From assembly GCF_964019385.1 (NCBI RefSeq), contig NC_088651.1, positions 518,863-582,862 on the forward strand: a stretch of DNA of 64,000 nucleotides, given 5' to 3'. Shown here one piece after another: positions 11,360 to 52,130 of this stretch. The notes beneath the pieces are model-generated. The model searched no databases. It was not told the origin of the DNA and saw only the letters and a list, made by a program, of their open reading frames with translations. Made by a program: the position numbers and the translations under genes. How positions within the stretch are numbered: the stretch's first letter is position 1; every line of letters starts with the position of its first letter. Source of the stretch: Sycon ciliatum (taxonomy: Eukaryota > Porifera > Calcarea > Leucosolenida > Sycettidae).

Positions 11360-12380
11360 TAGCCCTTTCCTAAAGGTGCCAAAAAAATTCGCAACTTATG
11401 CTTTTCGCAACCGTGCCAAAACAAGTGAAAGCACAACTACCTGAGATAGGAAAACGAACAGACTTGGAATGAATCATAGATCATTGTCCTTTTTACTGAA
11501 CCTTCGCACACATGACATGTTGGCATGCTCAGGGCTGCCACATACATGTACAAATATTACACAGCAATGAATCAAACAAGTCTCTTTCCGCTGTTACTCC
11601 GAGTTTCGTGTGAAAACACTCATCAGACAGCATATGACCAAGACTAACAATCACTAGAATGTATACGATAGAAGAGGGCAGAGGTGATGGAGGCACATTG
11701 CAATAGCGCGAGGAAAATGGGTGACAAAAATCAGCGTGATTATAAGAGGAAAAAGATGTTGAGAGTATAGAGTATAGCCTGGGTAAAGAAACAGCGCGAT
11801 TCTCTGGCAACACATCAGTACAGATTTGTGCTACATGTACATGTAACTTGTACAGTACGACCGGGCGCAGAAGACACTTCGCCAAAAAACACAGTTGTAG
11901 GCTGGAAAATGGGCAAATGGAGGCTAGATTTGCAGATTTGTAGATTTGCAGATTTTTAACAGAACCCATGTACCGTTTTCTACATGTTTTCCACGTGGTG
12001 TGATCGCATCGTATGGTGCTCTCCAGGATCGTGGAATAAGACCAATACGACCAACACCGTTCAACATGGTAGAACAATGCTAGGCTATGCCTTGAGCCCC
12101 TGCGTTCTTGGGACCAGGAATCGGCGCCCGATCTTACTCCACTTCTCGAAGTACACTTGTCATGATGATTTGATGGAACGGTTTAACACTTCTTGTTGAA
12201 GCGGAGCATCACGGACACTTCATTGGTCGCCTCCAGGGCACTTCTCTGCACACAGCTGCGGAAAAGTTGCGAAGTAGTTTTTGAAAATGAAGAAAGTTGC
12301 GAAAGTTCCGAATTCTGCCATAACAACAAAAAGTGGCAAAAAAAAAAGGTGAAAAACTTTGGGAAAGGGCTAAAGGGCTA
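11360..12380. mobile_element. candidate non-autonomous element with TAGCCCTTT ends and TTCGCAAC subterminal repeats
   Basis: The left end TAGCCCTTTCCTAAAGGTGCC (11360-11380) is mirrored at the right end, where the reverse complement of 12364-12380 begins TAGCCCTTTAGCCCTTT. Both ends carry several TTCGCAAC-type subterminal repeats (near 11387 and 11402 on the left; inverted near 12265 and 12297 on the right). Repeated subterminal motifs are typical of hAT-like transposons, but the pairing is imperfect and no transposase is present. The canonical hammerhead at 11590-11631 lies inside. Confidence 0.35.
11590..11631 (-). ncRNA. hammerhead ribozyme motif (type I, complete core)
   Basis: Read on the minus strand: stem I GCTGT/ACAGC pairs perfectly (11627-11631 with 11590-11594); core CTGATGA (complement of 11620-11626); stem II GTGT-TTTC-ACAC with four perfect pairs; GAAA; stem III ACTC-G-GAGT; then A as cleavage nucleotide, giving a GUA site between 11595 and 11594. 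All invariant core bases are present. The one-base stem III loop resembles the very short stem III of HHRs in Penelope-like elements and retrozymes, which often work as dimers. A TACATG repeat lies about 40 bases downstream on the same strand. Confidence 0.7.
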
Positions 12381-14747
12381 GTCGTAATAGCGTCGTTTCT
12401 ATAAACTTGCACAACTGTAAATGTAATGATTTGTTCTAACATGCGAATACGCTGCCCACGACTTCTTGCTATAAACGGGGAGGACGTTTATCAGCAAGGG
12501 AAGCATCGCCATGTACTGCGCCTGTGTTGCGAATTCAAGCAGATTGTTTTTCAAAGTGGAAACGGGTCGAGGTAAGTCAATGGACGTTACGTTGTGCGTT
12601 CCAATGATAAAGAAACGTTTGTTGTTGTCTTCAACTTGTAGTTTGTTTTGCATGATCTTTTCCTTATGGAACTATTCAGGCCCCACGATAATAAACATCG
12701 TTGCGCACATCGGGAGAGCCCTTGAAGCGATATCCCAGCCACGAACAGGACACAGTCACACCCGCAATTCCGGATGCCAAGTACAAACACAGATGCTCTC
12801 CTAGAGGTACATGTATACGCAGAGGATGTTTAGGCTCGGCGAAGGATGTTGTCACGGATCCATGGCATTGGAAAAATTATAATATTGCCTGTGAATGGAG
12901 CCCTTCCGCAAAAGCAAATACATCCGCTGCACGACCTCTCTGATAATACTTGTACATGTATGTGTTTGTCATCCTGTCCCACACAAACACATGTACACGT
13001 ATACAGACAAATACGATGAAGTTAAAGAGCATGCTATATCCAACGTATTGTCTATGAATCACATCCACATTAATGTCATTATGGAGTACTTCGAAGTACT
13101 TGTGTACACTAAACCATTGTACAGGTGATCCCACGCATTCTGCCTGCTCATTCAAGAGCTAGGTACCAGGTCCTCAAAATAACTAGCACAGGTCGGTCAT
13201 TAAATGCGTCATGCAGCACATTATGCACTTCTCCCTGTACTTCCATTGCGGGGTGACACTGCGACACACACACACATACACACATACACACAACCGTTGC
13301 AAGCAGGTTTAGGCGATAATTCGATAAACTATGCCAAGGTTAGCCAGTTCTACGGCTGGGGTCGGATGTGCAACTAATTACTTCAAGTGGAACCAAAGAA
13401 ACATCCCTCACAGACACATCTCAACACGTCAGTATACAAATACTGCATAAGACATTGGTATGCAGCCTTGCAGGATAGGTCAAGACCTCTTTCCTGAACG
13501 GCTCGGTGATTTCACTACGTGAACACCACGCACAAGCTGTGACTTGTCTCGATTATCACCACGGAAATGGTGTTAGGTATGGGGTTGGATATTGTCACAC
13601 CGTAGATCAAAGAACATACACACAGCATAGTAAACACTCGAATGCACGCCTAGCGTTTAGATATTATGGTTAATGGGAATGCGTCGCGTTAGACGAGATC
13701 AAGTAGCTATCTTCTCGGGTGAAAGTGTGAACAGACGAGGCCCACGTGCTAAGGTGTTCGTAAGAACCCATTCTGGCACTATCACTGAAAGTAGAAAGTA
13801 GCTCTCTGCATCCGCTGTATGGGGTAAACATCTGCTCTGCGCATAGTCACGTTCTTCAAGTAGGCAATTGGCAAATGCCCATCCTTCGCGTCAACTAAAA
13901 CATGCTCTCACTGTTCTCTTAGCAACTGTATGTCCATGTAGGGTGAGCATGGGTTTAGTTCTCGCAGGGCGCAGGACAATACGCAACTTATGACTTTTGT
14001 CGCAAGTGAGCCAATGTCCACGCGTGTACAAGCACTTCTTCAATTCTACACCGAACATGATGGGTGATCACCAAATATGCTTAGACACACGGCCAGTGGA
14101 CGTGACTTGGTGGAGACACATCGCCCCTGTGTCGTTCAAGTCAAGTACGAAACCTTCTCAAATCGAATTCGAGCCGTGCAAAGTCATACACTTTTTCACG
14201 GAACAGCAACTGTGCGTCAGGATTCTGGGCACACTTGGTGTCAGCAGCAAAGTGAAATTTTCTGTAGTTAGCTGCAGTGCAGTGTAACAGTTCCAGCAAA
14301 GGAATTTTACAAAGCACCCCTAGTCCTGACTGACACGTTCAATTACCTTCTTCCCCTTCACCATATGAGCACTTGGGAAGGTGATAAAAGCAGCGTTGAT
14401 TGAGTATTGTCCGCTTGACGTGTCCCCACACTAAACGACGCTGAAAGACAACAGACCGCTACAGAAGTATAATGTCTGGTAATGATTGCCGTCGAGTTCG
14501 CTCAACAGACTTTACTGAGGCGTGATTGCCAGCAATCTGGGGTCAGTTTTGCATCCATGTGCCGCATTTCTTGCGAAACGTGGCGCTATAATGCGAGGAC
14601 AAGTTCAACCGTCTGCGAAAAGATTTGTTTACCTACATGGACATCTACATAACTATAAGACCGTTCTTCACAGCAACATGTATATGTACTTCTCGAAGAT
14701 GAAATCGACCAGTGCCGGGACGTACCACTGAGGCAGGTGTAGTGAAG

Positions 14748-14984
14748 GAGAATATGAGCAACATGGGTAATTACGGCCCAAGTTGCCTATCATGCCGCAT
14801 TTGTACAGCTTAACCCTTTGGAGTCCATGGTTCGATTTCGAACCGTGGGCATTTTGTATGCATGTGGGCGCAGTCAAACTTTCGGTTCTCGGCCAAATCT
14901 TGACCAAATTCAACAATCGAGAATATGAGCAACGTGGGTAATTACGGCCCAAGTTGCCGATCATGCTGCATTTGTACAGCTTAA
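14748..14984. repeat. 66-bp direct repeat, period 171
   Basis: GAGAATATGAGCAAC... at 14748-14814 recurs at 14919-14984 with only a few substitutions, both ending TTTGTACAGCTTAA. The 104 bases between contain a near-palindrome around TTCGATTTCGAA. The pair explains the internally repetitive minus-strand ORF here, which I do not accept as a gene. Confidence 0.8.
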
Positions 14985-15738
14985 AGTATGGACTAAGGCG
15001 CAAGCGTCTCCTGGGGCTTATGCATGACTGAAACGTATTCAAGAAGAACTCAATGACAGCGTTCATCATAATCATGATCCGCACCAGTCCTGCTAAACCT
15101 TGTCCTCGTGTGTATATTTGTATACCATAATTATCTTGCAGATGGAACATCCACATTTTGCCGCTGGCAACTGATGGAAATATGTTCTGTGTCGTAATTG
15201 ATAAAAATCATAAAATTAATGTTCGCTAATGAGGAATTCGGCCAGCTTCTCTGAGCTCCGTTGGCCATGTACCCTAGCAAGGCGTGAAAGCACCACTCAT
15301 TACCCAATACACAGTGTTTCGGGGCACCCCTCATCAGTTGCGCTTGATTAGGCTAATGTCGTAATGAAAATTTTCTCGGCTAGCACTGCATCATGTACAT
15401 GTATGATTGTCTGCTATCCGAGCCTACACGTCACTAGGGATATCCACTCACAGTGACACTCCGTGACAGACGAGAGCCTCAACCAAAGTTACGTCCATTT
15501 CATGGTTCAATATTTGAGGGTACAATTCTCTGTATACATGTACATTGAGTTCCAGAAAAGGTTAACCTACAATGTATGTTCAAAATATACAGGGGAGGGG
15601 GGGGGGGAAGGGCGAAGAGAACACTTCACGAAAGGTTTTGCCTTTGTATTTTGGCAACATAGAAAGTCAAAAATGATACCTATAGTCACAACAACAACAA
15701 AAACATTTACATGAATCTGTGGAAGCGTAAAGGATTGA

Positions 15739-15793
15739 ATGGAGTGGGTGGATGGAGTGGGTGGATGGAGTGGGTGGATGGAGTGGGTGGATG
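15739..15793 (+). repeat. 13-bp tandem repeat (GGATGGAGTGGGT), about 4 copies
   Basis: A perfect short minisatellite of unit GGATGGAGTGGGT, strand-asymmetric (G/T-rich on plus). Confidence 0.9.
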
Positions 15794-18377
15794 TTGTCGA
15801 AGAATCGCACACTGTATTAGTGCTGACTGTCCGTATATGGTGAGAGTGTGTATGAACAAACACCGTGATTGCAGTCTATAGGAAGTTGCCAGAGAGTCCA
15901 GGGTACAGTGCAATGCCATTGACATGGAGGGGTATTCGTATTCATTGCATTCAAAAGATCACCCAGAGTGAACCTGCAGTGATCCTACTGAGTGACAGAG
16001 TCTGTATAATCATTACTGTATCTGATGGTTCGTTTTATGTTACTGTGTTGATTCTTAACAAATGCGTTATTTTGTCCGTACAAGAGGCTCAAGGAGTTCA
16101 TTCATAAAAAAGAAGAAAAGAAAGATTACCCAGAGGCTCTTAGAGGCTCTAGTCCTGTCAATTGGATCATCCATTTACTATTGACAGACGTACATGTACA
16201 TGTACAACCATGTTCATACAGGTACAGGTATTATACGTGTACGGGAACATATACGTGTACGTGAACATACACGTGTATTCGCCAGTGACTGTGATTGATA
16301 CTCTACTTCAGTTTTGGGACTCGCCAGGCAAGATAATACGCGTGCACAGTATGGACTGCATCCCTATTGTGCTACACATGAAACTTGGCGTGAATTCATC
16401 AACAACGGAGGCAGATGAGCTCTGGATGAACTTCGCACCTAAGGTAAACGTGGCCTTGTTTTACATGTGCCAAACAGAACACGCAGTAATACAACTGCAG
16501 TTCACGAGTTCGCTACAGTGCCCCATAAACACGCGTAGAGCTCGTCAGTGGCCACAAACAGGGAATAGTATCGTCCTTCTCACTGCCATTTGCTATTGCA
16601 GCGTAAGCAGCGCAAGCACTGTCATTTGTCCCATAGTACCTACATGTACATGTCATGGCGATACTGGCAGACAATGGTTTCTCAAGACTCTGTTTGCAAA
16701 GTGCAGTACGTTACGTAACAGTGCGCAGTCATACCATACATGCATGTTCATGTACATGTAGCACAAACGTGTCCTGAACCATCGTATACCGTTTAAATGA
16801 AGATACTGGAAATCTGATCATAGCCGTTAAAACGCATTCAAACCGGTGCTCCAACGCAAGCCCTAGGTCCTATTGGACACCTGGCCGTCTCTAAAGCGCT
16901 GTTTCGAACAATCACCTTGTACTGCCCTTGCAGTACACACCATTTACTCACCATTGGCAACCAGCAGAGTCAGAGTTTTCACAACACCCACCTACTGCGA
17001 GGTTTGAGATACATCGTACATTTACCGTCACTGATCAGGCCACCAAAAGCAGAAGGGTCAAAATCATAAAGACCACTCTCAATATTGGACACTGCCTACT
17101 ATGGAAACAATCATAGCAGACAGGATAATAATTATGATGTTACAGGATAGCACACCCACGCTAACACACCACAACCACCGCAATGGTGATATCAGCAAAC
17201 AAGAGGAATATTGTATCAAGAGCGGACGAAGGGTCACTGACTTCAGATTGTATTGCCTCTGTCAGCCATGGTAGTTTGACCTTCATGTACGTGTGCTTTC
17301 CTCTTTCCTCTTTCACAATGAACGTACTACAACTACATGTATTCTGGTGGTTTCGAGTCCAGCCAATTGTCTAGATCCTGCGAAATAAGGGTCACTAGTG
17401 GCTTGAGAGTTTCGCCTGTGCAGATGGGCCGGGGGAAACAAAATTTAATTAATGTTCACCATCTTATAGCATATTGAATTTGATTTGGACGTGAGCCTCT
17501 CTTGTGGCATCTCTAGGTCCATGCTATCTGATTATACCCACCGACTGCATGCGCCTGAGACCTCACGAAGAAGGGCCTGTCATACATACATACTGTACAT
17601 GTCCATGCTGGAGATTCAATCTGACTGTATATGGATTAAGAACGTTCATCTTTGTACTTATTATCCGTTGGGTGTGAGGACCACCTGCAGCGACCACTGG
17701 TGCAATAGCAATGACTAATTAACCTTCGCCTCTGGTGCCACGTTACGCTAACCCCGGTAGGACCAGGTGTTGAGTTCAGTGGTCTCGGGTGCTGAAGAAC
17801 TCGGAGCTCAGTCTCCTAGCCTAGGCCGTTCTTATTTTCATGTACTGCACAGTTGAGTCACTGCATGTACATGTACACATTGGCATGCTGCGCTTGGTTG
17901 AATTCTAGCCTGTTCGTTCTTCAGCACTCCGCTCTTTGGCAACCGACAGCACAGTAGTGCAATGCACTGGCAACTGGAAGTCTGAAGCTCGTCAGCTGAC
18001 CATGAAGATCTAAGGACAGTTCTGGAACTTCATGGTGTACAGCTGGTCGCTCGCACTGGGATCTAGGCGTGGCGGAATCCATCACTCAACTGCACATCCA
18101 CCTAGCCCGTCCAAGATCTTGGTATCTATGACATCATAATTGTGCGGAGTCATAATGATGTTTTTCCACACTTAAAGCGCCGGTCCATTCGTAATCCTAG
18201 GAGCTGGTCCTCCGTACGTGTCAGGGCGAAACCACCAAATTTGGTCCTGTGTCAACGCGTGGGTAAGTGCAGCCCCAGGTTGCTAGAAACCTAGTCTAAA
18301 AGCTTCCAGTGAACTGTGACACCGACCCATAGTCCACGCCGGGCAGGACCAGAGACTTCCAAGTAACAGTTGAACTA

Positions 18378-18540: not shown

Positions 18541-18723
18541 GCGTCGTGATACGCAACGTTGCCTGTACAGTGTACTGGCAATGCTACGTACCCAACACAC
18601 AGCATTATGTACAGCTAGTCCAGTGGAGTGTTGTGCAATGGTGTGACAATGCACCAGGGTACGAATGTTCCCCGGCCGGGGCTGCAACGCGATCATGTAC
18701 ACCGTCATTCAATTACACTGCTG

Positions 18724-18785: not shown

Positions 18786-19745
18786 TCTGTAGTACCAACA
18801 TACACACATGTATTGTACATACATGAATTTGTGGTGTATTTGATCTGCCTGATCCATGAGGATGGAGATGTTGGGCGTTCCTGAACCGCATCAATCCAGC
18901 TGTTCGCCACGGAGATATCGCAGACCGATGGCCAGGGAATTCAAGTTATTCGCCCTGAACATAAACTGGATCATACCAGAGCATAGCGATAGAAGCAGGC
19001 TATTGTTTCCAAGACACTTCAGGTCAATCACAATAATAACAAACAGGGATAAACAGGGATAAAGGTGTTTAATGCGAGATCGCACTTTGAGAGCAACTGG
19101 CTCTTGTCTCATGTTTCCACAGCTCCCAAATAACATGATATTCGAACGATGAAAAGACGTCACTGTTTCACTCCCTTTGCAAATGCGAACTCGCAACACC
19201 TATTCATGACTAACAGCTGAGTTTAGGGTAGGCTACAAACTGGTACGAACACCTGTTGGGCTCACTTGCAAGATTGCCCAAGACAGCAAACGATAGAACT
19301 ACATTTGTACATGTATATGTAACTGGTAAACTTAAGTCACTGAGGTAACGCCACGATACTTTGTTCTGGCGTTGCTCCGAGTGTTACGGCAATACTCCAA
19401 TAGGCAAACTCGCCAGGCAGCAACATACTGTTCATGTAGCAGATGTTGATGAGGGTAACTAAGAACAAATTCAGGAGGTGTCTTCGAAAGTTTCAGAAAC
19501 GTCAATGCTGATATCATACTTGTACGGTACACCACATGAAAGGTATCCACGATCAGCCGAGGGAAATGCAAGAGGTAAGGCAATTTTACCACGAGATGTA
19601 TGGAATCCGGTAACCCCAGTAACGCCTAACTACATACATGTACACACACACACAGCGGCCTACACTTTTAAAAACGGTTTCGTGTTTATTACCGCGCACA
19701 AGTATCACCGAAATGACACAAGAGGTATGGAAAGTAGGGCACTTT

Positions 19746-19791
19746 GTTGTTACACAGAGTTTCATGTTTCAGCAACCAATCATCCGACAAC
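19746..19791 (-). ncRNA. decayed hammerhead-like motif
   Basis: On the minus strand stem I GTTGT/ACAAC pairs perfectly (19787-19791 with 19746-19750), GAAACTC and a GTGTA site are present, but the core reads CGGATGA (U4 changed to G) and stem II is weak. Position and layout match the ACTC/GAGT-class hammerheads elsewhere in the window, so it is a probable inactive copy. Confidence 0.35.
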
Positions 19792-22338
19792 AGAAGGAGG
19801 TTCTTGTGTACTGCTCTCGGCTCATCACAGGCATCGACCACTGTAGCAGGTTAAGTCGCTCTGCCTTTGTTATCAATGTTTTTTACAAGAGCCGCAAACC
19901 ATCATTGGGTGCAAACGCCACAAAAAACACACAGAGATACACATAGGGCGAACGAAGCAGTGGAGGCGGGGAAAGAGCAGCCAAACCGATCAAGGGCCTC
20001 GGCATTATGACTGCTCGTGTATCATAACAATGAAAGGGAGAATACTAAAAACCTGATATTGTGCCCCAGCAAGGGCGTGTGGGTGCTGCATAAGCTAAAA
20101 TTGTACCCTGGTCGGAATCTGGATTCTCTCTTCGTCGCTTGTGTGTGTGTATGTATGTGTGTATGTGTCAATAATGTGAACTGCCGACGGGATTGCTCAA
20201 CCTTGAAACAAAACAAGTATATTCCTCAGCTTAAACCTGTCAGTCTTATTTAGAAGTACATTACTTTGCGCCATTCGTCCATGCATGCACATGCTGAAAT
20301 CGCATTTAAGTTACGTCTTTTTGGAAAATAACACAAGGAGAAGTGCAAGCGATAACTTCCGCTAAACTATGTTTTCCTGAGGCTGTTTCTGTACGGCACC
20401 AGTCGATGTATGGTGTCCATTCTGGTATCAATTGGTTTGTGCTAAAAATCCGTTTCACTTTAGCCCATTGATGGAACTCTGCGTGCAATTAGCCAGGTTC
20501 GACCCAAGCTGAGTACAGTGTCACTGGCAAATTGCAACCTACTCTCACTGCTCTCCGCCATTTTGCAGCTGTAACACTAACATCGTCGTTTGGAACAGCT
20601 GCTGGGCGCATATCATCACGATATTGAATGTGTCACCTGAGGAGAAACAGCATATTCAAGATGCCAAGATCTTTGTTCGTTTGGGTACGTTGCTTGCCTT
20701 GAGGCATGCGTCCAATCATAACAGATGACAGTCGACCATTCCAGATGCCGTCATGGTGGACCAGAAAGACCCTGAAACAATACATGGCGCTTGGAGGCAT
20801 GTCAACTTGCCATGCCGTGCGCCAACAAATAAGCCAGAGCAGTAATTCCTCCAACCACTGGTTAGGTCTGGCATTGAATGTGCCTGAACATCCAATAGAC
20901 AACATGCTGGGTGTAATCTCACCTTGTCTCCTCCACCACTTCCCAGCTTGATACAGAACTACAATATGCAATGTACAAAGCAGGTGAAGTGTGCAACAAG
21001 GTCGACAGTTGCTCTCTTGTGAAGTTTCATTTTCCGATAAGCACAGGCCAATCCGTGAGCACTCCCATATTGCCATAACAACAACAACAAAAGAAGTCGC
21101 GATCATTACTTGCTAGTGGCATGTACATTATTTTCACAACGCAGCGAACCACACGTGCACATTGCGTTCCCAAATGCCCCCAGTCAACTGTACACAGGAT
21201 CCATACGTTGCTATGGACATAGTCCCACCTCAAGATCAGGCGTAACTCTATACAACTATTGAACTAACCAGTTGGCTGGTACCAGAAGGCATAGTACCCA
21301 ATCCACAGCGTACTTTGGCTTCGGTACTCTCGACCTTCTAATTCTGACATTCGGTAATGATGCCCCCCGGGTGAGAACACACAGCAGTCGCGTGATCCGG
21401 CCAGAAAGAAAGTGTTTACGGAGAGGTTTCAGTACTGCATGCACTGCAGACACTATGCTTCTGCGAGGCGAGTCACAGCTGCGACTGCCTTTCTCCTGGA
21501 CACATGCATCCTCGCCCAACTCAGCCAGATGTGAAATCACGGAGCAGCCGTACATGTAGACAGGTTCTGTACTGGTACCTAATTCAAGTACGAATTCCAG
21601 AAATGATTACCTGCTTTATTGCCTAAGTTTACCCGTGCATTCCCTTCCACATAGTCATAATGGTACATGGACGAACTCCCACCCGAACCTGCCAATACAC
21701 ACCTGTCCTGTGAAGAGGTTGTTTCGACAAGGACAGGAGAGAGTCGCCATTAGACCTATGAGTAGTGTGGGTAATGGCAGAACGTGAAGGGCACTGCACC
21801 AGTCACCCCCTCGGTGACCTGTCTGCGGACCAGACCGAACACAAGGTACAGCTTGACATTATTCATTAACGTGCTGCATGAGAGCTGGAGACAAGCTGGA
21901 TGCCATAATCAGCGCAATTCTTACAGCTACATTGGGAGTACAGTACATGTACATGTAGTACATTCGCACCACTTACTGTGAAACGTCTGTATCAATTACA
22001 TGTGCATTGCACCTTGGATATACAAATGTAACATGTTTCTTCACATTGGATATCCACGTACAGTCATGAACATGTATACAAGGACACATCATTTCAGAAG
22101 ACATAAAATCCTTTTCTAGCCCTTGACCTCGGATGTACATAATGTACATGTACGTAGAGTACCTCGGCTAGACCGGCCTTGTGTGAGTAACTCGGCTACA
22201 ACGTACAGATTTGACGGCGATTTGAAATACACGTACAAGTCATGTAAATCTAATTGAAGGTTCACTCACTTATCTTGTATGACCAGCTGCTCACTCCTGT
22301 GAAGCATACTTTTCAAAATAATTGGTAACCTCCAATGC

Positions 22339-22389: not shown

Positions 22390-22410
22390 CTAAGATAATT
22401 ATTGTTTGAC

Positions 22411-26282: not shown

Positions 26283-26400
26283 TCCGGACGAAGAGCCGTG
26301 AAGGGGCAGGATGAGCAGCTGTGTCTCAAGAAGAGCAAAGAGCAAAAGAGCTTTGGAAATATTTCTCCTTCCGTAAACAGGTTAGCAGAAGTCGAATACG

Positions 26401-27201
26401 ATGGCATCGATGTGTAAACTATCCACTGGGTCCTATGGTCAAGCATTAGCCTCCAGCAACCTGTCAAGTTGTCTGCTTGGCCTTGTGATGGTAACGTTTC
26501 TGGTCCTGTCCATGCCAGCACCAAGTCTCTCAGCCAGTATCGCTAAGAACACAATCCATCGACCAACAGGACTTACACCATTTCAGGGTCTGCGCGAGGC
26601 GGGCAGCTCTCATTCGAACTTCGGCGGATTGTCTCCAGGAAACACGGCGGTCAACGATGTCAGCACAAATGCAGGAGGACGAATGCCGACGCCCGGACAG
26701 AATGGTCTGAATCGTGTGGACAATGGCCAAAAGATAGGCAAGAACTCAGTGCCCAATGCAACGATACCCCACAGTGAATCACAGCCCCATGTGGATGTCA
26801 GAGATGTGATTGTAAACCGGAATCGCAACGCCACCACCGCTCCCGAGGACCCTACCGAAGGAACTCCCACTGATGTAGGGCATGTCATTTACGACAAGAG
26901 TCAGTGGAAATCTAAGGAGGTGTGCGAGCTCCGCCGTAAGGCCTTCGAGATCACTCGGCCAGGCTGTGAGAGCCAACATGTGGAGCTGGGTTGGTGCAAG
27001 GGAGCATGTAATAACTGGACCAAGCTACTGCATCAGACAGCAAGCAGATCACCTGCCTGGTCTTCGCGGCTGCGCTGCTGTCGTGTTCGTGACATGGAGA
27101 CGGTAACTGTTAGATTGAATTGCCAAGGTGGTGAAGTGCAGGATGTTAGGCTGGCTTCAGCCAAGGTCTGCAAGTGCACCTCCAGGGAGAGATCCTTCTA
27201 G
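26401..27201 (+). CDS. secreted C-terminal cystine-knot (CTCK) protein, 9-cysteine variant
   Basis: A 266-residue single-exon ORF. Residues 24-45 are hydrophobic (LLGLVMVTFLVL) and end in a small-residue cleavage-like site after a 20-residue n-region, so a secreted ligand or matrix protein is likely. Residues 46-170 are a low-complexity pro-region with N-glycosylation sequons at 119 and 143. The knot domain occupies 175-266, with Cys at 175, 189, 199, 203, 226, 227, 241, 257 and 259. The family signatures CKGAC (CxGxC, 199-203) and terminal CKC (257-259) are visible; N205-W-T is a third sequon. CTCK proteins (bursicon, DAN/gremlin, mucin and von Willebrand C-termini) form disulfide-knotted dimers outside the cell. 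Compared with the paralogue at 60151 it lacks the first Cys of CxCC and the last Cys of CxCxxC. The start is the first ATG; Met4 is an alternative. The subfamily is uncertain. Confidence 0.82.
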   Translation: MASMCKLSTGSYGQALASSNLSSCLLGLVMVTFLVLSMPAPSLSASIAKNTIHRPTGLTPFQGLREAGSSHSNFGGLSPGNTAVNDVSTNAGGRMPTPGQNGLNRVDNGQKIGKNSVPNATIPHSESQPHVDVRDVIVNRNRNATTAPEDPTEGTPTDVGHVIYDKSQWKSKEVCELRRKAFEITRPGCESQHVELGWCKGACNNWTKLLHQTASRSPAWSSRLRCCRVRDMETVTVRLNCQGGEVQDVRLASAKVCKCTSRERSF

Positions 27202-33645: not shown

Positions 33646-33672
33646 AAAGTCGGTCTATCAATACTTCTCAGT

Positions 33673-33720
33673 GCTATAGACAGAAAGCTGTTTCGACTAT
33701 AAAGTCCTCATCAGTAGATC
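33673..33720 (-). ncRNA. hammerhead ribozyme motif with GUC cleavage site
   Basis: Minus strand: core CTGATGA (complement of 33708-33714); stem II GACT-TTAT-AGTC with one extra G before it; GAAA; stem III ACAG-CTTT-CTGT with a proper four-base loop; then C, giving the canonical GUC cleavage triplet at 33679-33681. Stem I begins with two pairs (TA/TA), then an internal mismatch, and is the weakest part. Every invariant catalytic base is present. Confidence 0.6.
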
Positions 33721-34000
33721 GACGAGCTGCAAAAAGCCGCGTTGCCAGCCATGGTCATGGTGCAAAGGTGGCTGGAAATGAGGCGAATAGTACAGTGAGT
33801 TTCAGAGGTGTTCATCAACTTTCATTACTACAGTACTTTTACGAGCAGAACTGACTGGTTGACAACGTCTTGGCCAGACCGAAACACTGCCACAACAAAA
33901 CGGAAACATAATTCGGTTGTATCGAGAAAGATAAGCACGAGACATTCCAATCACTGCGGCCACGTGGTGCGTAGACCTACACCACATTGCACCGAAAAGG

Positions 34001-36834: not shown

Positions 36835-38236
36835 TATGGCACTGTTTTAGAGAAAGATTTGAAGCGCTATGTCCAGGTAGGATTGGGATTGGTTCGCTGA
36901 ATGCCAGAAGGAAGCAGTTCAAATCTATCGTTGGGGTGACCAATTTAAGATGTATAATTTGTTAAACAAAACCGTGTGGCAATTATTACTGAGTACCTTG
37001 ATTTTGAAGAATGCTAGCTGTGAACGGTTGTCCGTGTCAGATATATGCTCGAGACTTGCTCATTGCTGAACTCTTCTGCGGCAGGATAAAATGCGAGGTT
37101 GCCAAGAGTTTCGCGTCAGATACGATCTTCCACAACAGATGCAGGCGGGCGACGTGCCAAGTTCTCTTGCAATGTACAGTGTGGATGAGTTTGCAAGGCT
37201 ACCGTTGCCAGGGTGTGTGCAGTTGGGTCGTTGGCAGTACAATGGGCGCAGTTCATGTTTGGTAATCGGATCGAAGGGAGTGCATAGCCTCCAGTATTAT
37301 ATACAAACACTGGCTAAGAACTACGGACAATGGGAAACGCAAGGCAGTTAGTGGTGGTGTCAGCAGTGACCTCGCTCACTTGTTCCTTTTTACACTTGAC
37401 AATAGTACCGTAAGTGTAGCTGCAGAGAGTCGCTAGAACGGCGAAGTCACCGTCTCAACCTCTAGCATGATCGTCGTTTGATTGGGCAGTTGTCCGTTTA
37501 ATCGGACAGTTCCAGTGCCGGGAACACTGTGCTGAAGTGCAGTGGAGTTGCTTTACTGAACTGCTTCCTTTGTTTTGAATTTGTGTTTGTGTCGGTATTT
37601 TTCGTGTTTTTAAAGGAATACCCAGAGGTTCTAGGCCTGTCGAGGGGATCTCCTAACAAAGTTAATGAGTTAGCCAAAGGGTAAAGAAAGGGTATAGCGA
37701 ATAAAACAAAGAAAAGAAGCAGTCAGAGCCAATTGCGAAAGTCAAGTGTTGTTATGTTTTACGTAAAGAGCGAGAGATGACGCTGTTCCTCGTTTTCATA
37801 TGGACCTTCGCTTTGTCTCCCAGTGTATGCTCTTTGGCCTACTGGCCGGTATTTGGTTGGGTTGAAGAATACATGTATGCCGTGAACCACCACGTGTGCC
37901 CTTCATGGCCTATGTTCAGCCTCTTTGTCGTCTCTGTGCTGCGCTGACGAGTCCACATTTGACGAACCTGTTCTGTCCGCAGATTGAGTATCTACCCGTT
38001 ACTTGCCTATTTCTCAGGACAAATTCGCCTTTGGTCAATATTTTTTCTGTTTTGTCCACATTCTCGAAAAAAACCTCGATCATAGCTTCCCGCATAGAAT
38101 TCGTAAGTGCTTGCGATAAAAGTGGGCTCGAAGGAGTTTTTACCCAGTTGTGGAAAGAAATCCGTGAGCAAATCCGAACACGTGTGATCAGTGCGGGAGA
38201 AGCTGTCCAGTCTTGGGATGTGCTGCTAGTAATTGA

Positions 38237-39906: not shown

Positions 39907-40104
39907 CACTTTGATTGAAGAATGCGTGACATTATGATTATCTGCTTTACAGAAGTCCCCACTACCTTACTATCCTGCACCAAGACTCACACATGAGCCG
40001 AAATAATATAATGATTAACCACAGGCTTTAATATCAGTTGTTTGAAGATTTCCTCCGTATGAAACTCTGAGTTAATTTAAGACGTATTCCAATCGGACAT
40101 CTCC

Positions 40105-40108: not shown

Positions 40109-40154
<46 letters not shown>

Positions 40155-40219: not shown

Positions 40220-40479
40220 TTGTTTTTGAAACAGGATCTGCTCAATGCATTTCAATCACTTTTCCGGTTCGTTTTGAAAAATATCTTTGTTATATTTCTA
40301 CATAACACATGAAGGTATACATATCAATAAACTGTTGAACGGTACCTTTCGGCTGTTGAATAATACAAGAAACTAACTCTCCTCCTCCATGCGGTCTAAG
40401 GCCGACCATTGCTACCCTCGGTAGCCATTACTCACACCAACAACTTCAAACAACGAAGGAGTCACGGGTAAAACATTTC

Positions 40480-40521
40480 CTTCTGACAGCTATTTCGCCT
40501 ATCAAAGGCTCGTCAGAGAAG
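40480..40521 (-). ncRNA. hammerhead ribozyme motif in the left arm
   Basis: Minus strand: stem I CTTCT/AGAAG (five pairs, 40517-40521 with 40480-40484); core CTGACGA, position 7 being the variable one; stem II GCCT-TTGAT-AGGC; GAAA; stem III ATA-GC-TGT with a wobble pair; C as cleavage nucleotide (GUC at 40485-40487). Confidence 0.55.
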
Positions 40522-40610
40522 ATGATACTGATATTGTAATTGACATGGCATACTGATTTTATACGCTGTAATTATTATGAGAATGATCATTTCTCCATTA
40601 TCATTATCAT

Positions 40611-40656
40611 CCTCTACTGATGAGCTCCAACAGGGAGCGAAACAGCTGTCTAGAGG
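40611..40656 (+). ncRNA. hammerhead ribozyme motif (most complete copy)
   Basis: Stem I CCTCTA/TAGAGG pairs perfectly over six bases (40611-40616 with 40651-40656). Core CTGATGA at 40617-40623; stem II GCTCC-AACAG-GGAGC with five perfect pairs (40624-40638); GAAA at 40639-40642; stem III ACAGCTGT (40642-40649), which is self-complementary and leaves only a two-base loop as a monomer; C at 40650 completes GUC. Cleavage is predicted between 40650 and 40651. A self-complementary stem III is the known hallmark of HHRs that work as dimers. Confidence 0.75.
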
Positions 40657-40940
40657 CTCGGAGGAATATTATCTCTCAACGGAAGTGTCCTTGCTGGTGT
40701 CTGTATGGTTCGGCTGAAGAGCGCGTGGTTGTGAGGAGTTGGGAATGCAATGATTTGTAATTATTATGGGCGCAAGAAAGAAACTAGGCAAGGTGTAACA
40801 CTGAGAAGTTCCAAGAATATTCTCAAAGCCCTTGGTTCTAGGAAAATGGCAGGTGAGACACTGTATTCGTCCAATCACAAGCTGCTAACATTTTGCATGG
40901 CTCGATAATGCAGCACAGATACAGACTACGAGCGTGTAAA

Positions 40941-40980
40941 TTCCCTGAGGAGCCTTTGATAGGCGAAACAGCTGTCGGAA
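40941..40980 (+). ncRNA. hammerhead ribozyme motif in the right arm
   Basis: Stem I TTCC/GGAA (40941-40944 with 40977-40980); core CTGAGGA (variable position 7 is G); stem II GCCT-TTGAT-AGGC; GAAA; stem III ACAGCTGT; C at 40976 completing GUC. Same strand as the central ribozyme, with the two predicted cleavage sites 326 bases apart. Confidence 0.6.
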
Positions 40981-41097
40981 GGAAATGCTTTACCCGTGAC
41001 CACTTCGTTGTTTGAAGTTATTGGTGTGAGTAATGGCTACCGAGAGTAGCAATGGTCGGCTTTAGAGCGCATGGAGGAGGAGAGTTAGTTTCTTGTA

Positions 41098-42625
41098 TAC
41101 ATTGCACATGTAGGCATACATCTACAATGTATTACTATGGGCACACAAATTTGTATTGCACTATGAATCCGTTTTACTCAAAGTATAACAACTTTGAAAA
41201 TCTTAAATTCTATGGAACACTATTCATAGCCGTCGATGTGAGGGTGGGTCACCGACGTCGATGGGAGGGTGGGTCACCTACTCAAACATTGAGATGCGTT
41301 CAGTGCTGGCACCCATACAATGGGTTTTGCATACCAGGAAAGCGTGTGTCGCATTTGCACTCTACATAGCTCGGATTGGGAACGAACGAGCTCTCGCATT
41401 CGGGCAGTTTCACGTGATACGCATCAGTAAACCGTTAACGATAGCATTACTTATCTAGAAATGTACAATGTACACCTGTCTTAACTGCATACCATTCTCT
41501 AAGAAAACGTGACATTGGCAAATCGACTACAAGTCATAATTGTACTTGATAACAACGTTTTGTCAGTCGGTTCAACAGCAATTGTGTCCCCCTTGCCGCT
41601 GTTGTAGTACTCGCACAGTGAAAATGTATAGGTATTTTCTGGCTAATAAGACTTTATCTTTCATTGTCTTGTGTCTTATACGTCTGGACTTGTCTTATGT
41701 AGCAGAACTCTAGAGGAGTACGCCATTTATAGACTGGTTAATGAGGTCCTTCAGGAAATATGGGTGACAAAGCTAAAAATACACAGCCCAGGTGACATTG
41801 TGAAGTGCTTGGATGCGACTTGGCATCGGCAGTATCACGTTCGCCTGAGTCTAGACCTCCCTAAGCCATGTTCGCCATTCCACGGCAATTCCGTGTTCTA
41901 ACTAGATAGACGCTGGCTACATTGCGTCAGGAATGCCCTAAACGACTGTGTCATGTCACTAAGATCGCGTTCGAGGTTTGGCAATGATGGATTTAGGTAG
42001 AGATCGCTGTTCTTCTTTTCCTGCGAGGCCACCAGCCGTAGACTCCCGAAATAGCTGCCACTACTCAGCAATATTAATCAGGTTTAGGTTTAGGTTTACT
42101 TAGCCGAGACGCGAAGTCCAAGTACCTCACATTGTCATATTTATTTCGGATCAGACTATGCTGGTTGCAGCGTCGTGACGAAGCACATGCGGATGCTGAG
42201 ACACTATGCAGAGGCAATCGCAAGAAGGAGATCAATGACACGAATTTTGGTAATTTCATTGAACGAGTTGGGAGAAACGTCCAGTGGAACGTGTGCAGAA
42301 AGGACCCAAACTGCACGTGTGGTCAGAAAGGAGAGACATTGTAAACAGGACTTTGTGCTCTTACTTATTACATTAATACAGTCGTAGAATGCTTCCTTTC
42401 AACCTGGGGTCACATTTCTTTCCTCGCATCAGGATTGGGTAACCGTACGGAGATGCGTCATCATTGTAACCATGGCTTTGAGCTCTTGCTTATTCACGCA
42501 CAGCAGTTGTTGAAGTATTCCTTCTACGATTGTAACACAGTCGCACTTTTGTTCCCTGGTCCTAGGATTGAAGAACAGCTGCGTCATACATTTACTATGG
42601 CTACCAGTGATCCTGTAAGGAACTA
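41098..42625. other. gene-poor stretch
   Basis: No gene recognised. A duplicated GAGGGTGGGTCACC motif (near 41239 and 41264) and three TTTAGG-like units at 42078-42097 are the only visible structure. Small ORFs have no recognisable motifs. Confidence 0.45.
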
Positions 42626-46806: not shown

Positions 46807-47006
46807 CTGAATGTACGTGTACGTGTACATGTGATATACGTACATGTACACGTACGCATATCACATGTACATATACGTCATATACGTACATGTACACGTA
46901 CATGTACATGTACATGTACTAGTACATGTACATGTACATGTACTAGTACATATACATGTACGTATACGTACATGTACAAACTATAGTATACATGTACATG
47001 TACGTA
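46807..47006. repeat. long TACATG/ACGTGTAC satellite-like array
   Basis: About 200 bases made almost wholly of TACATG, TACGTG and TATACG units. Within it a block ending in TACTAG occurs twice (about 46904-46948), so there is a weak higher-order repeat. It abuts the ribozyme foldback at 47067-47241. Confidence 0.9.
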
Positions 47007-47101
47007 AACTCGGAGGGAGTTGTGGTTGCTCGTGAGAGTGCTCAATACACCAAGGTGCAGAGCCTAGTACACACACTTGAGAGGGACGAAAAGCGTTTCT
47101 T

Positions 47102-47143
47102 CTGTAACTCTGAGTTTCACGGTTTTAACCGATCATCAGACAG
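47102..47143 (-). ncRNA. hammerhead ribozyme motif, left arm of the foldback
   Basis: Mirror image of the motif at 47165-47206 with the same core, stems and GUU cleavage triplet. Confidence 0.5.
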
Positions 47144-47164
47144 CAATCATCAGACAGCAAGTTG

Positions 47165-47206
47165 CTGTCTGATGATCGGTTAAAACCGTGAAACTCAGAG
47201 TTACAG
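47165..47206 (+). ncRNA. hammerhead ribozyme motif, right arm of the foldback
   Basis: Stem I CTGT/ACAG (47165-47168 with 47203-47206); core CTGATGA at 47169-47175; stem II CGGT-TAAA-ACCG, with an unpaired U-U next to the core where a G-C pair is usual; GAAA at 47190-47193; stem III ACTC-A-GAGT; U at 47202 (GUU triplet). The U-U closing mismatch may weaken it. Confidence 0.5.
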
Positions 47207-47241
47207 AAGAAACGCTTTTCGTCCCTCTCAAGTGTGTGTAC

Positions 47242-49831
47242 ATGTACGTATATGTACATGTATACTAGAGTTTGTGCTTGTTTTGCCAATGTGCAATGTC
47301 TTTTCCCGTTTGGGTATTTCCTCAAATTAGTGATTACATGTACATGTACACGCTCAGATTTTTCTTCGTTCAACGTACCTTTCCATTCCACCTGGCGAGG
47401 GTGCAACACATGCTCCATGCAACGGAAGCAGTTTCCATGGTGACACTTGTCATGGTAACTGTTGGCTATTGATGCACTCTGGCACGGAGCTGAAGATAGA
47501 TTGTTGCAAGGCCGCTAGAAACGTCCACTGTCTCAACTCTAAACCTGAATTTCAGAGCATTTTCTAAACTGCGAGCAGGCATTGACCATTTCCTCTGTTC
47601 GCGTGCCAGCTCAGACTAGCATACTGCTACTCCCTGCTGGAAGAATTATTTCAAAAAGGACTTCGTATCGGCAAACACAACCGTCTGTAGAAAAGTGGGA
47701 GTGAATCCAGCCATGGTAGAGTGTGAGGTTAACATTGTGGGTGTTTTCACGCTAAGGCCGCCAAAATGCCTGTAGTGTGCCACACTTGGACAAATAATTA
47801 TTAGTGCTGCACTGCAGAACATTGACAGTTTTTAAGCCGCAAGCTTGAAGTAAGAAGTCGCATGCCAACCGAAGTGAGAAGTCGCACCAACAGACACCTT
47901 GCACGCGTTTTTCCCCTTTCGGCCAGAATGTTTGATGTGCTTTTATGCTACTGTACATGCACTTGCTTCGTTTTTGGGGAGCGAAACACGGGGATGATTC
48001 CATACAGGGATTTGAGCCGGCCTCTCGGCAGTGACAGTACTACAGTTCGCTCTACTCTAGTGAGTGATGAAGATCCACACATGGATCTGGTGAGCTGCAT
48101 ACCCTTTTCCACTTCAGAAAGAAAAGTTGGGGAAATGCCTGGCTGGAAAGTGCTCAATGCGCAAGCACAACTCACACTCAAACGGTGAAGAGTGTGTGCC
48201 AACTCCTTAGTATATCGCGAATGCATGTGTGCGTTGGGTGATTCCCACGAAGGAATCCAGCTCCAAGTACATGTGTATTGTCACCAAGATTCGCTGACGA
48301 CCAGTACTTACAATACATATTCCAGGTGAACAAAGGTTCTCTGCTGATTGGTCAGACATGCGATTTTGAGTTACAACATGTGCCTCTTGGTTCCTCACTT
48401 TCATAATGGCTTTCCCCTTCACAGTTTAATTGCTTTTTCTTACCTTAGAATATGTTCACCCTGCGGATGGGCCATGCCCGAAAATTTGGTGGATTTAATT
48501 ATCTACACACGGCAGAACAACGGAGACCAAAAAGCTTTCTCGTCGTGTGTGTGAATTAAATTATCTATGTATTTTGAAGTTGCATCTGCAACGAAGAGAC
48601 TATGTTTGGAAAGTTAGAATTGAGGTACCCTAATGTATCAGTGGCTGCGATGGAGTCTGCGAGGTCTTAGAAAAGTGTATTCTTGTTAAAGCACATGTAC
48701 TCAATCTGCGGACAGCAAAAGTTAAAGTAAAATGTTAATTGTGAATATCACCAGCAACTTCATAATTATGGAGACTATTGCCAATAAAGGCCTGGCCAGC
48801 TTTGATACAGGTACAGGTACATGTATATGTACATGCAGTTGACATTGTATTGTTGCACGTTGCACGTCCACTCACGAAGCGAGGGTCAGTTAGGTACACT
48901 TAGGCGAACCTCCGCATAGATAGTCTTGTACTCGCCATCACTATCACCACCACTACCACAACAACAACCATCGATCATGTACATACATGTACATTCATAC
49001 ACTCATATTTTTGACGTTCACGTCCACACACGACGCGGGGGTCAGTGAGGTACACCAAGGCGTACCCCCAGTAGACTCACGCCCGCTATCAACCTGTCGG
49101 TGTCGACTCTATGATCACCAACGTGAGTGGATCGGTCAATATCGGCGAAGACCGGCGAGTAACCGCCACCTCATCTGTAAGCAGGTGTCAATGTCAGGAG
49201 GAAGCAGAGTTGCGCGAAATCATGAGAGGGCTTTGTAGCAACACACCCCGCAGCTGGGCTTGCTCACACAACTAGGACATCTACCAGGGACTAGTCACCT
49301 TCATTCACACTTTGTGTATGCGCGTGTGTGTGTGTGTGTGTGTGTGTGTTTTAGTGCTTATCCTTTTGACAGGGGCTATTGTGTGAGAGGGAGGTCACTG
49401 GTGAAGTATTGATCTACAATGCACATGTAGGTGTTTCGTTGACAGGATCGCTGACAGCCTGTTAGACGTTTCTCGTCTCCACATCTACCCAGTGCCAGGA
49501 ACCACGCCCAACGTCACACGTTTTCTAACTCAACCTTGCCATCGTTTTTGAAACCTGTGGACATCTCGTCACAGTAATCCCGACACAGGCTTTTGGTTCT
49601 CCACCATGCGTGTTAGCCAACGCCTCAGTTTGGGATTTTGAGAACGTGCCCTATGCTCAGATGTGCCTTAGACGCAGCCCCAGGCAGATCACCAGGTGGC
49701 TGCTAGAGCATTCCACGTAATTATTCATAATAATGTGATACAATAAAAGAGGTTTGGGTAGACACACCCGTTTCAGTCTCACTGCAAATCTGAATCAATT
49801 GCCGAAACATTGTTTAATATTGGAATTGTCT
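47242..49831. other. gene-poor stretch
   Basis: No gene recognised. It holds TACATG blocks (47239-47260, 47336-47350), a direct repeat pair (48863-48915 and 49019-49070) and a GT microsatellite (49322-49351). Opposing ORFs near 47862-48226 have no recognisable motifs. Confidence 0.45.
48863..49070 (+). repeat. 50-bp direct repeat, period 156
   Basis: CACGTCCACTCACGAAGCGA...GGTCAGTTAGGTACAC... at 48863-48915 recurs with about ten changes at 49019-49070. Confidence 0.65.
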
Positions 49832-50144
49832 ACTGATTTGAGGGAAAGACACAAACGGGAAAAGTCTGAAGAAGACATTGACTGTCACCACCAGGACAAG
49901 AACCAGGGACCCTCGCTTGTAGCCAGCGATGCTCTATCAACTGAGCTATGGTTTTGTCTTCATCCCAGGAGCAACCCTTCAGAAATTTCTTCAGACTTCG
50001 TAACTCACACTTCCTGTGAATCCACACAGGCGGGTGGGACGCAGCCCTCACTGTAACACACACACTTCACATACAAACTAGCACGTGGGGAGCCCAAAGT
50101 CATAAAATGTTCACTGATTTGAGGGAAAGACACAAACGTGAAAA
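49832..50144 (-). mobile_element. tRNA-derived SINE with long flanking direct repeats
   Basis: On the minus strand a tRNA-like head is visible: A-box region TAGCTCAGTTGATAG (complement of 49934-49948), an anticodon-like arm TCGCT/AGCGA with a seven-base loop, and a degenerate B box GGTTCTTGTCC (complement of 49893-49903). The unit (about 49864-50112) is flanked by 32-base direct repeats (49832-49863 and 50113-50144, ACTGATTTGAGGGAAAGACA...) with one difference. The T-loop is too altered and position 33 is not U, so it is unlikely to be a working tRNA. Confidence 0.55.
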
Positions 50145-50475
50145 TATTGGAATTGGTTCAGATTTCCAGTGACACTGGAATTGGTGTTTCCACCCAAACC
50201 TCTTTTCTATTATTAAGCTGCAGGAAGCCTCAAGACTTCTTTTGAATGTGATACAACCTACCGATCGTGAGAAAAAGCTGCAAATGTATTCTATATTGAC
50301 TGGGATTCGGCCTACAGCTAGCGGTTGCCTTGCTTTTCTTGTTCGCGTGCTACCCCGTGTTGAACCTCCTACTTCACAAGCCAATGCGGAGTTGTCTTAG
50401 AGCTACAATGCATATAATTATAGGTATGAGGTATAAGGTCGTTATAGGCTCAGTCGTCTGTCCATTTGAATGTAC

Positions 50476-50530
50476 AGAAGAACCTTGACTAGCGGCCACA
50501 GTACTCAATTCAAGGCGTGCAGAGCTTAGT
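50476..50530 (-). repeat. flank of the ACTC-class hammerhead element
   Basis: GCGTGCAGAGCTTAGTAC here matches GGTGCAGAGCCTAGTAC at 47054-47070, and AGAACCTTGACTAGCGGCC matches AGAACCCCGACTACTGGTC at 61444-61463. This is part of the sequence repeatedly found downstream of these ribozymes. Confidence 0.55.
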
Positions 50531-50567
50531 ACAAACGAAAATCCGGTAGAACAAAAAGTTATTAAAT

Positions 50568-50612
50568 GTTTCTACTCACGAGTTTCATGCTGAAAATCAA
50601 TCATCAGGAGAC
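50568..50612 (-). ncRNA. hammerhead-like motif, weak stem II
   Basis: Minus strand: stem I GTCTC/GAAAC (four of five pairs); core CTGATGA (complement of 50601-50607); GAAA; stem III ACTC-GT-GAGT; A as cleavage nucleotide (GUA). Stem II does not form a clean helix, so activity is doubtful. Confidence 0.4.
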
Positions 50613-51065
50613 ATTTGAATCCACATGTAGTATCTCACTTTCGGACCACATATTATCCACAAGTGCTTACAATGGTGGGCAGTTCCTCGTTATTCGTATT
50701 CATGCGTGCACATTTACTTTTCACATTTTAGAATCGTCTTCTTTCCTAGGAATTGATTGGGGCCACAATGGGCGTTTCAACGGTTTGTCCGGGTTTGGCG
50801 TGTGCAATGATTGGAGTCGCCTGTGGTCACTTGTGGGTTAAGTGCAGTGATACCGGTCATGGCCATTGCGTGATTCCTGTCCCACAAAATTCACGTACGT
50901 ACATATACATGTAACATGTGCATGTACCGGTAAATTATGTAGGATAATGTACAATCAGGTTACACTTGAGAATGAACTTTGCGGCATCTTGCAGCTTCGT
51001 CCGTAGAACGTAGTTGGGTGGACACACCCATTCCCTAACACTGCAAAGGACCAAACAAATTCTTC

Positions 51066-51099
51066 ACGTACAACGTTTCGGCAATATTGCCATCGTCAG
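51066..51099 (-). ncRNA. hammerhead-like core with non-permitted cleavage base
   Basis: Minus strand: CTGACGA, a well paired stem II (GGCAA/TTGCC around TA), GAAA, and a palindromic stem III ACGT-TGT-ACGT. The next base is G, which is not accepted at the cleavage position. Confidence 0.35.
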
Positions 51100-51389
51100 G
51101 TATGAATGAAACAATCAATCAACTACTTTCTACAGGTTGCACTTGTCGTGATCTGTATTTGTATTTATTATTCAAAGGATTGCCCAAAACCATAGCCTAT
51201 CGGGGGAATCTCCTAAGTGAAAACCAAGCAAATGGTAATCTCAGTATTTGTTTCGCTGTAATAGAGGTACTGTTTCTAATTGTCCGCAAACTCCAACGCA
51301 GCCACTTACAAATTAAGGAAACTTCACTTCTCAACTCCAAAAACGGTCTCTTCACTGTGGGTCAAATTCAAATTTTCATTCCACCAATA

Positions 51390-51412
51390 TTTCGGGCCTG
51401 GCCCATCATCAG
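51390..51412 (-). ncRNA. hammerhead-like core fragment
   Basis: Minus strand CTGATGA, stem II GGGC-CAG-GCCC and GAAA are present, but stem III and the cleavage triplet cannot be formed. It lies 314 bases from the similar motif at 51066-51099 in the same orientation, with related flanks. Confidence 0.3.
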
Positions 51413-51983
51413 GGCAATGAATGACAAAATAACCATCGATTAGGTACTTATGTAATGGAGGTGTCCAGGTATTTATGAAACTTCTGCTTCGAAGTAGTGG
51501 AATTCAAGAGGTAGTTTGGAGGCGGTCAATATAGTTTCGCAATCTATATCTTCGCATGGAAAGACGCAAATCCACACAATCAAGTAGACATCTCCTTTCA
51601 TCTATCAAACGTGTTCTCTCCCTTCTCTTCAGGATAGTACAGGGAATGTTGGAAATTTGGAAAACAACATAACTATAGAGTTTGTAAAAAAGGAAGAAAG
51701 AAAAGAAACCCATTCAACTTACATGTAGCTGAGAGATGCCAAAAATCAAAAACAGAAGCTGCAAGTTGTAGACAAACACTTTGAACGCATCAGGAAACAC
51801 TGGTCACACTTTCACGAAGCGTGACACAAACCACTGCAACGATAACACATTCTCCTTCTGTACACATAGTTCTGGATCTAATGTATGGATATACAGAGCT
51901 TCTAACACAGTAAGATGCAACATAGACTTTCCACGAGTTAAATTCGAAAAGATATCATCTATATTACAGGGTGCGACAGAGCT

Positions 51984-52130
51984 ATGATGAGCTATATATT
52001 AGCGAAACAGCTATCTGGAGGAATGTATCAATATCGTCTACGGAAGTGTCCTCTCAGTGGTGATGGTTGTGTGCAGGAGGGTCTAGTCGACTGAGAGCGC
52101 AGTGTAGTGGTGGAGTTGATACTGAACAAT
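51984..52130 (+). repeat. decayed copy of the central 40611 ribozyme element
   Basis: GCTATATATTAGC-GAAACAGCTATC at 51991-52015 aligns with the hammerhead at 40617-40650, and the following GGAAGTGTCC and GAGAGCGC blocks match 40680 onward. The core reads ATGATGA (C3 changed to A) and stem III has a mismatch, so the ribozyme should be dead. Confidence 0.55.

Follow-up and report, generated by a model that had tools for sequence, protein, structure and literature searches.

Hammerhead ribozymes are known from Penelope-like elements (PLEs). Here, we analyzed hammerhead motifs scattered over a 64,000-nucleotide stretch of the calcareous sponge Sycon ciliatum (NC_088651.1, positions 518,863 to 582,862 of the forward strand; the window, numbered from its first letter), together with their relatives in the 538-Mb genome. 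Three described systems lie closest. In the sections of PMC11167929 considered here, the Penelope/Poseidon type of Anolis carolinensis has a minimal hammerhead near the frame start, a tandem arrangement of pseudo-long terminal repeat (pLTR), open reading frame (ORF), and pLTR, reverse transcriptase (RT) motifs followed by GIY-YIG motifs, an optional tail between two RT start sites, and AT-rich targets, all of which recur in the sponge elements, where the RT and GIY-YIG motifs are putative and read by eye. According to those sections, Anolis Poseidon initiates reverse transcription in vitro at two neighboring internal positions, which delimit the tail; both DNA strands are cleaved and extended, and ribozyme cleavage is dispensable for insertion. 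The tail measures 59 nt (family E) or about 42 nt (family A) in the sponge compared with 30 to 40 bp in Anolis Poseidon, and in a sister family (locus L143), the hammerhead ends 49 nt before a stop-to-stop frame, whereas the Anolis hammerhead overlaps the start codon (same sections of PMC11167929).

With the Penelope elements of Adineta vaga, as far as the consulted parts of PMC3846280 describe them, the sponge copies share head-to-head inverted pLTRs, a tail on one of them, solo pLTRs, target duplications of 8 to 10 bp, and a TATA box plus initiator in the pLTR. Unlike in those parts on Adineta, the short copies are many and young here (47 of the 48 listed family E pieces are 98 to 100% identical to the query), and many have a sharp 5′ end; hammerheads are unmentioned in the text of PMC3846280. 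Finally, metazoan non-LTR retrozymes are characterized in the consulted parts of PMC7229834 as tandem repeats of 150 to 450 bp that coexist with PLEs. Families C, D, and G of the sponge genome resemble them in forming tandem hammerhead units of about 226 to 352 bp, unlike the main window copies, which are nontandem and lie inside PLE-type pieces. As detailed below, most hammerheads of the window are very probably PLE ribozymes left as short, 5′-truncated pLTR insertions by the mechanism that we propose, and they belong to an already known kind of element.

Hammerheads were searched with a scanner for the boxes CTGANGA and GAAA (each with at most one mismatch), stems I to III, and an NUH triplet. 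Seven sites, on both strands as the preliminary description of this DNA had reported, reached a score of at least 30, and all seven scored at least 33. Both core boxes are intact and the stems are good in 7/7 of them, and each has the boxes, stems I to III, and NUH triplet of a type I hammerhead with a minimal stem III, the kind known from PLEs, as had been proposed; such motifs are predicted to self-cleave. A covariance model (CM R1) was built from seven alignable hammerheads of the family E kind, all from outside the window. It gave 11 full-length matches (E ≤ 0.0036), with E values that are rough and a model that includes the hammerhead of L064, a relative of the 50567-50613 copy. CM R1 recovered all seven scanner sites and added 50567-50613, 19745-19792, and 40036-40077, plus 54147-54190 (+), which the scanner had already found with a score of 29; a partial match at 63447-63479 (E 0.008) is excluded from the copy count. 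An earlier alignment over mixed families, in which stem II was misaligned for several members, had been dropped. Three more copies, one at 33673 and two near 37930 and 51981, came from similarity searches and reading. The window thus totals 9 sites that keep both core boxes and 5 decayed ones, so the former tally of at least eight loci and four decayed ones was right in substance. The two copies singled out at the time, 11590-11631 (on the minus strand) and 40611-40656, are real.

Could the motifs be due to chance? The core is short and the first search was done by eye, but the possibility is extremely improbable. In 200 dinucleotide shuffles of the window, a mean of 0.245 sites (maximum, 2) scored at least 30 and none scored at least 33, the score reached by all seven copies, and an initial set of 20 shuffles yielded 0.05 sites at 30 or more. 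Moreover, the model built from outside copies gives E values down to 3e-14, and related families are spread across the genome. Chance origin, which had already been called very unlikely for 40611-40656 and 11590-11631, is refuted for the seven best copies, and the presence of real, scattered hammerhead motifs in the window is confirmed. Stems I and II also covary in nine aligned hammerhead types of the family E kind, with a score of 0.526 versus 0.234 in shuffled data (0/500) and 21 versus 7.8 cells changed on both sides (0/500), and none of 500 shuffles matched the data for three of five measures.

Several results speak against these hammerheads. The Rfam scan that had been suggested as a check returned 0 matches in the window at gathering thresholds. 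At E ≤ 10, the sole hammerhead match was HH9 at 40599-40673, which scored 29.4 bits where the cut-off is 52 (E 0.0029); of the many miRNA matches, most fell on microsatellites or on the 47.1-kb foldback pair. Minimum-free-energy folds of eight copies, seven of them in the window, showed no unusual stability (z between −1.6 and +0.6) and were uninformative. The two remaining covariation measures were weak (26 and 206 of 500 shuffles), and all nine hammerheads compared were chosen by a scanner that requires pairing. Across the genome, 4 of the 21 RF00163 matches listed exceed the Rfam cut-off; eight RF00163 matches read letter by letter were all of the C type, and the scanner also finds 7/8 of them. 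These numbers show that the curated cut-offs of Rfam overlook the PLE-type hammerheads described here.

Families E and A of the window show the architecture of a PLE, with inverted pLTRs and a tail on one side. The family E head-to-head pair (47008-47241), identified by repeat search, a pair script, and a flanking duplication test, consists of a left arm at 47008-47146 (−) with a 59-nt tail and a tail-less right arm at 47158-47241 (+). The 80-nt arms are 100% complementary and lie 15 nt apart, and their hammerheads (47100-47145, −; 47163-47208, +) were both found by the scanner and by CM R1 (E 3e-14 each). The pair is flanked on both sides by ATGTACGTA and adjoins an ATGTAC microsatellite at 46811-47003.

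The family A element (40321-41098, −), delimited by repeat search, is an inverted pLTR pair with a body, interrupted by a family B insert. Its inverted arms, 40363-40520 and 40941-41098, are 158 nt long and 93% complementary, with a hammerhead in each: 40479-40522 (−; CTGACGA, GAAA, and GTC; CM R1 E 2e-4), whose motif is also present in sister copies, and 40939-40982 (+; CM R1 E 6e-5), both found by the scanner. A tail of about 42 nt (40321-40362) extends the left arm, the right arm has none, and no clear target duplication was seen for this copy. The family B insert, a 176-nt piece at 40580-40755 (+), carries the hammerhead at 40611-40656 (+; scanner; CM R1 E 0.0012; the HH9 match below cut-off). 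It is flanked by a direct 13-bp duplication, TGTAATTATTATG, at 40567-40579 and 40756-40768, and the empty site is found in other family A copies (e.g., L012 and L013), where query positions 22-280 join 457-644 with a 13-bp overlap. From their architecture or motif, families A, B, and F would also be of PLE nature.

Next, the families were connected to coding frames. Locus L044 is a family E copy. Upstream of its hammerhead come YRDDGL (translated by eye), an in-frame stop codon, and finally a frame of 294 residues that contains KEYIGLTEPEFKKRYDNH and ends 260 nt before the hammerhead. We take these two motifs to be those of a Penelope-like RT and GIY-YIG nuclease. The genome holds 133 scored matches to this C-terminal PLE protein (among 3022 candidates). 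In L143, a hammerhead at 301-345 is followed by a stop-to-stop frame of 749 codons at 395-2641, in which RT and GIY-YIG motifs of the PLE type were recognized by eye, and by a second hammerhead at 2776-2820. The protein is matched again 2475 bp further on, at the same spacing as the hammerheads, which indicates a 2475-bp tandem unit. This tandem pLTR-ORF-pLTR arrangement with the hammerhead in the pLTR represents a sister family and is none of those in the window. In total, RT/GIY-YIG-like frames, with motifs read by eye, stand beside hammerhead repeats in L044, L143, and L144. The enzyme probably comes from autonomous-looking PLEs of this genome.

The domain searches weigh against this coding assignment. 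Pfam gave no match for the 749-codon frame of L143 as a whole, none for its RT part, only a chance-level match (E 0.16) for its end part, and none for the L044 frame; PDB gave no match for the 749-codon frame either. A GIY-YIG match in Pfam was obtained only in a second lineage (L031 and L062), at E 0.004 and below the cut-off. With nothing usable from Pfam or PDB, the RT and endonuclease names derive from motifs read by eye. In addition, among the window families, linkage to a coding frame was found for family E, whereas none was found for A, B, and F. As for the second PLE-like lineage (L031, L061, and L062), it has a frame, a long low-complexity stretch, a conserved C terminus, and then another type of minimal hammerhead, and a GIY-YIG fragment is present in the L031 and L062 frames.

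To describe the families genome-wide, the best 40 candidates were scored in each search (A+B, E, E2, and F), so that the counts are lower bounds. There are at least 144 matching pieces for families A and B (one query holding both), at least 48 for family E, at least 43 for family E2 (the other 39 main ones being 86 to 94% identical), and at least 42 for family F (mostly over about 69 nt at 85 to 90%). In the genome loci examined, 135 distinct high-scoring hammerhead copies fall into 21 clusters. TATA-like boxes lie 28 to 46 nt upstream of the hammerhead edge in several families, so that transcription could plausibly begin close to the ribozyme.

The many near-identical young copies make the ends readable to the base. 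For family E, two query designs were used, with the best 40 of 590 and the best 40 of 423 candidates scored, and the resulting sets are samples rather than censuses. Merging by flanking letters reduced 87 arm records to 74 distinct arms, four of which (two near-identical loci in L057) resemble one duplicated event. The 3′ ends fall mostly in two places, either within a few nucleotides of window position 47241 or 59 nt further, with the tail. Among 19 head-to-head pairs found by script (two being near-identical loci, and pairs with split loci or very short arms being left out), 18 combine a tailed with a tail-less arm, and the remaining one combines a tail with 10 nt of tail. The same holds for family A, in which 8/8 pairs with both arms, read by eye (L010, L011, L016, L018, L025, L026, L040, and the window), are one-tailed, with a tail of about 42 nt. 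Target duplications of at least 7 nt flank 17/19 family E pairs, the window pair included; when right flanks were swapped as a control, a mean of 0.84 of 19 pairs had one (maximum, 4). Two further head-to-head hammerhead pairs, belonging to other families, were seen at L069 2601-3111, where the two motifs overlap by 2 nt, and at L082 2260-2354.

At the 5′ side, 32/74 family E arms begin between −5 and +2 of the hammerhead 5′ edge, 14 continue past it into the body of the element (by eye), 7 reach only to somewhere between −95 and −13, 20 begin inside the ribozyme or just past the cut site (16 of them in scored pairs), and 1 is cut off by the locus end. Tail-less arms begin at the edge in 22/36 cases, compared with 10/38 for tailed arms, and 10 of the 36 share a single start position (AG before TTGCTG). 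Exactly at the cleavage site, no arm begins (0/74), and two begin 1 nt beyond it. In a limited search of the open-access literature, we found neither a statement of clustering at the hammerhead edge nor counts of tailed and tail-less arms per pair, beyond a remark in the parts of PMC3846280 considered here that one of the inverted pLTRs has an optional tail.

Based on these ends, we propose the following mechanism. The PLE transcript would start just upstream of the hammerhead. The PLE RT/GIY-YIG nuclease would open targets rich in AT or ACAT by cuts staggered by about 7 to 11 bp. It would initiate the copy internally on the RNA, at either of two fixed positions that lie downstream of the ribozyme and are separated by 59 nt in family E and by about 42 nt in family A. 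In family E, copying would often reach the presumed 5′ end of the RNA, the smallest insert of about 82 nt corresponding to the ribozyme plus some 35 to 40 nt. A head-to-head pair, as at 47008-47241 and 40321-41098, would arise when both target ends are extended and each uses a different start site. The ends and duplications of family E fit such target-primed copying, in which uncleaved RNA is copied from both sides and from internal starts, and the ends seen here are what the Anolis PLE in vitro reaction would leave. The family E ends suggest that the RNA template was usually uncleaved and often had its start at the ribozyme; they also suggest that a head-to-head insertion joins a tailed end to a tail-less one.

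Some of the data are less favorable to this mechanism. The first family E query favors copies with a whole ribozyme and biases the sample. Most of the 38 tailed arms come from the second query, in which the ribozyme played no part, and in this fairer sample, the starts were at the edge in 10 arms, within the ribozyme or shortly after it in 14, in the element body in 7, and upstream in 6, and 1 arm was cut off. Clustering of 5′ ends at the hammerhead edge as a rule for every family failed on family A, where the 5′ ends spread over −414 to +91 and a single one, that of the right arm in the window, lies at the edge. Several pairs lie inside microsatellites (e.g., L102 and L133), where duplications are easily found. 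Finally, the TATA positions are without a background control, and many small clusters have no TATA box.

An alternative origin of the inverted pairs is self-priming on an antisense transcript instead of extension of both target ends. The consulted parts of PMC3846280 propose it for the head-to-head pLTRs of Adineta with junction palindromes, and 17/19 junction gaps of the family E pairs are short, between −5 and +11 nt. However, self-priming alone does not predict one end per RT start site in each pair (18/19), and, in the sections of PMC11167929 considered here, the enzyme cuts and extends both strands in vitro; overall, we consider it unlikely. Single hammerhead-only copies could be remnants of larger elements after recombination or deletion, as suggested in those parts of PMC3846280 for Adineta solo pLTRs without target duplications. 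The single start position shared by 10/36 tail-less arms and the target duplications at some single copies (e.g., L094 and L099, by eye) make this very unlikely. Taken together, the pattern of one tail per pair and the sharp, short inserts favor two-ended priming and direct insertion.

More tentatively, and with rather less than even confidence, we suggest that solitary and paired hammerheads in animal genomes might be the shortest regular product of PLE copying. The transcript would begin at the ribozyme, and copying would start at a fixed site about 80 nt downstream and run off the uncleaved 5′ end; in each two-ended event, every DNA end would use one of the two start sites, as though both ends were bound in a single dimeric complex. 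If true, genome scars would reveal how many start sites there are, where they lie, and in what state the ribozyme was during copying.

The preliminary description had leaned toward retrozyme-like copies since no PLE gene was recognized in the window. In that scenario, the copies would be non-autonomous retrozymes, small tandem units whose hammerhead-cut monomers circularize and are retro-inserted by a PLE enzyme. The suggestion stands in part. Retrozyme-like families do exist in the genome, with tandem hammerhead arrays of about 226 to 239 bp (family C), 237 bp (D), and 352 bp (G); examples are L002-L004 (about 226 to 228 bp), L062 1511-2032 (237 bp), and L051 2326-3073 (352 bp). Family B, to which the 40611 copy belongs, occurs elsewhere in tandem units of 847 to 851 bp. 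Within the B array of L031, there is no start-codon frame of at least 80 residues on the B strand, so B is possibly a non-autonomous element or derivative. The copies at 33673 (D) and 37930 (C) are retrozyme-like and are the only window members of families C and D. Animal retrozymes, moreover, coexist with PLEs, as stated in the portions of PMC7229834 cited above.

Nevertheless, as an account of the window copies at large, the retrozyme scenario is quite unlikely. No window hammerhead lies in a short (150 to 450 bp) tandem array, families A and E occur as inverted pairs or as truncated pieces tailed on one side, and family E is linked to a PLE frame. A cut monomer should start at the cleavage site, which is not what the 74 family E arms do. 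The 133 PLE protein matches, the L044 linkage, the 749-codon frame of L143, and the architecture of E and A instead point to PLEs. Lack of a nearby PLE gene does not mark a hammerhead as a retrozyme, and the window itself may hold a scrap of PLE coding sequence at 51828-51959 (−), 46 residues with 41% identity to the L062 frame (tblastn E 2e-4).

The other hammerhead copies of the window are as follows. The family E2 hammerhead at 11589-11632 (−; scanner; CM R1 E 4e-14) lies in a fragment whose extent by blastn is 11540-11836 (−), and the hammerhead at 15302-15343 lies in a family F fragment at 15277-15463 (−; scanner, similarity search, and CM R1). An L064-type hammerhead with intact core boxes is located at 50567-50613 (−; CM R1 E 1.5e-13), with similarity to L064 over 50473-50611. 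The family D copy (33669-33772, −; 78% identity to L062) contains the hammerhead 33673-33720, in which CUGAUGA and GAAA are intact and stem I has two mismatches (CM only E 0.32). The decayed copies comprise 19745-19792 (−; CGGATGA; CM R1 E 2e-9), 40036-40077 (+; TTGAAGA; CM R1 E 7e-4), and the family C copy at 37914-37991 (+; 83 to 86% identity to L002), whose hammerhead at about 37930-37985 has GAAC in place of GAAA. They also include a family B hammerhead at 51981-52022 (+), read by eye and absent from the CM matches, and a copy of the L082 family at 54147-54220 (+; CTGGTGA; scanner; 90% identity to L082 over 54148-54220).

Beyond the hammerheads, a 969-residue stop-to-stop frame at 6301-9210 (+) has the endonuclease and RVT_1 domains of a LINE-type retrotransposon and is preceded by a zinc-knuckle frame at 5453-6100 (+). 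Two DAN/cystine-knot frames at 26386-27201 and 60139-61086 (+) are likely host genes of a secreted-factor family. A 247-bp tandem unit is present in two copies at 63289-63774.

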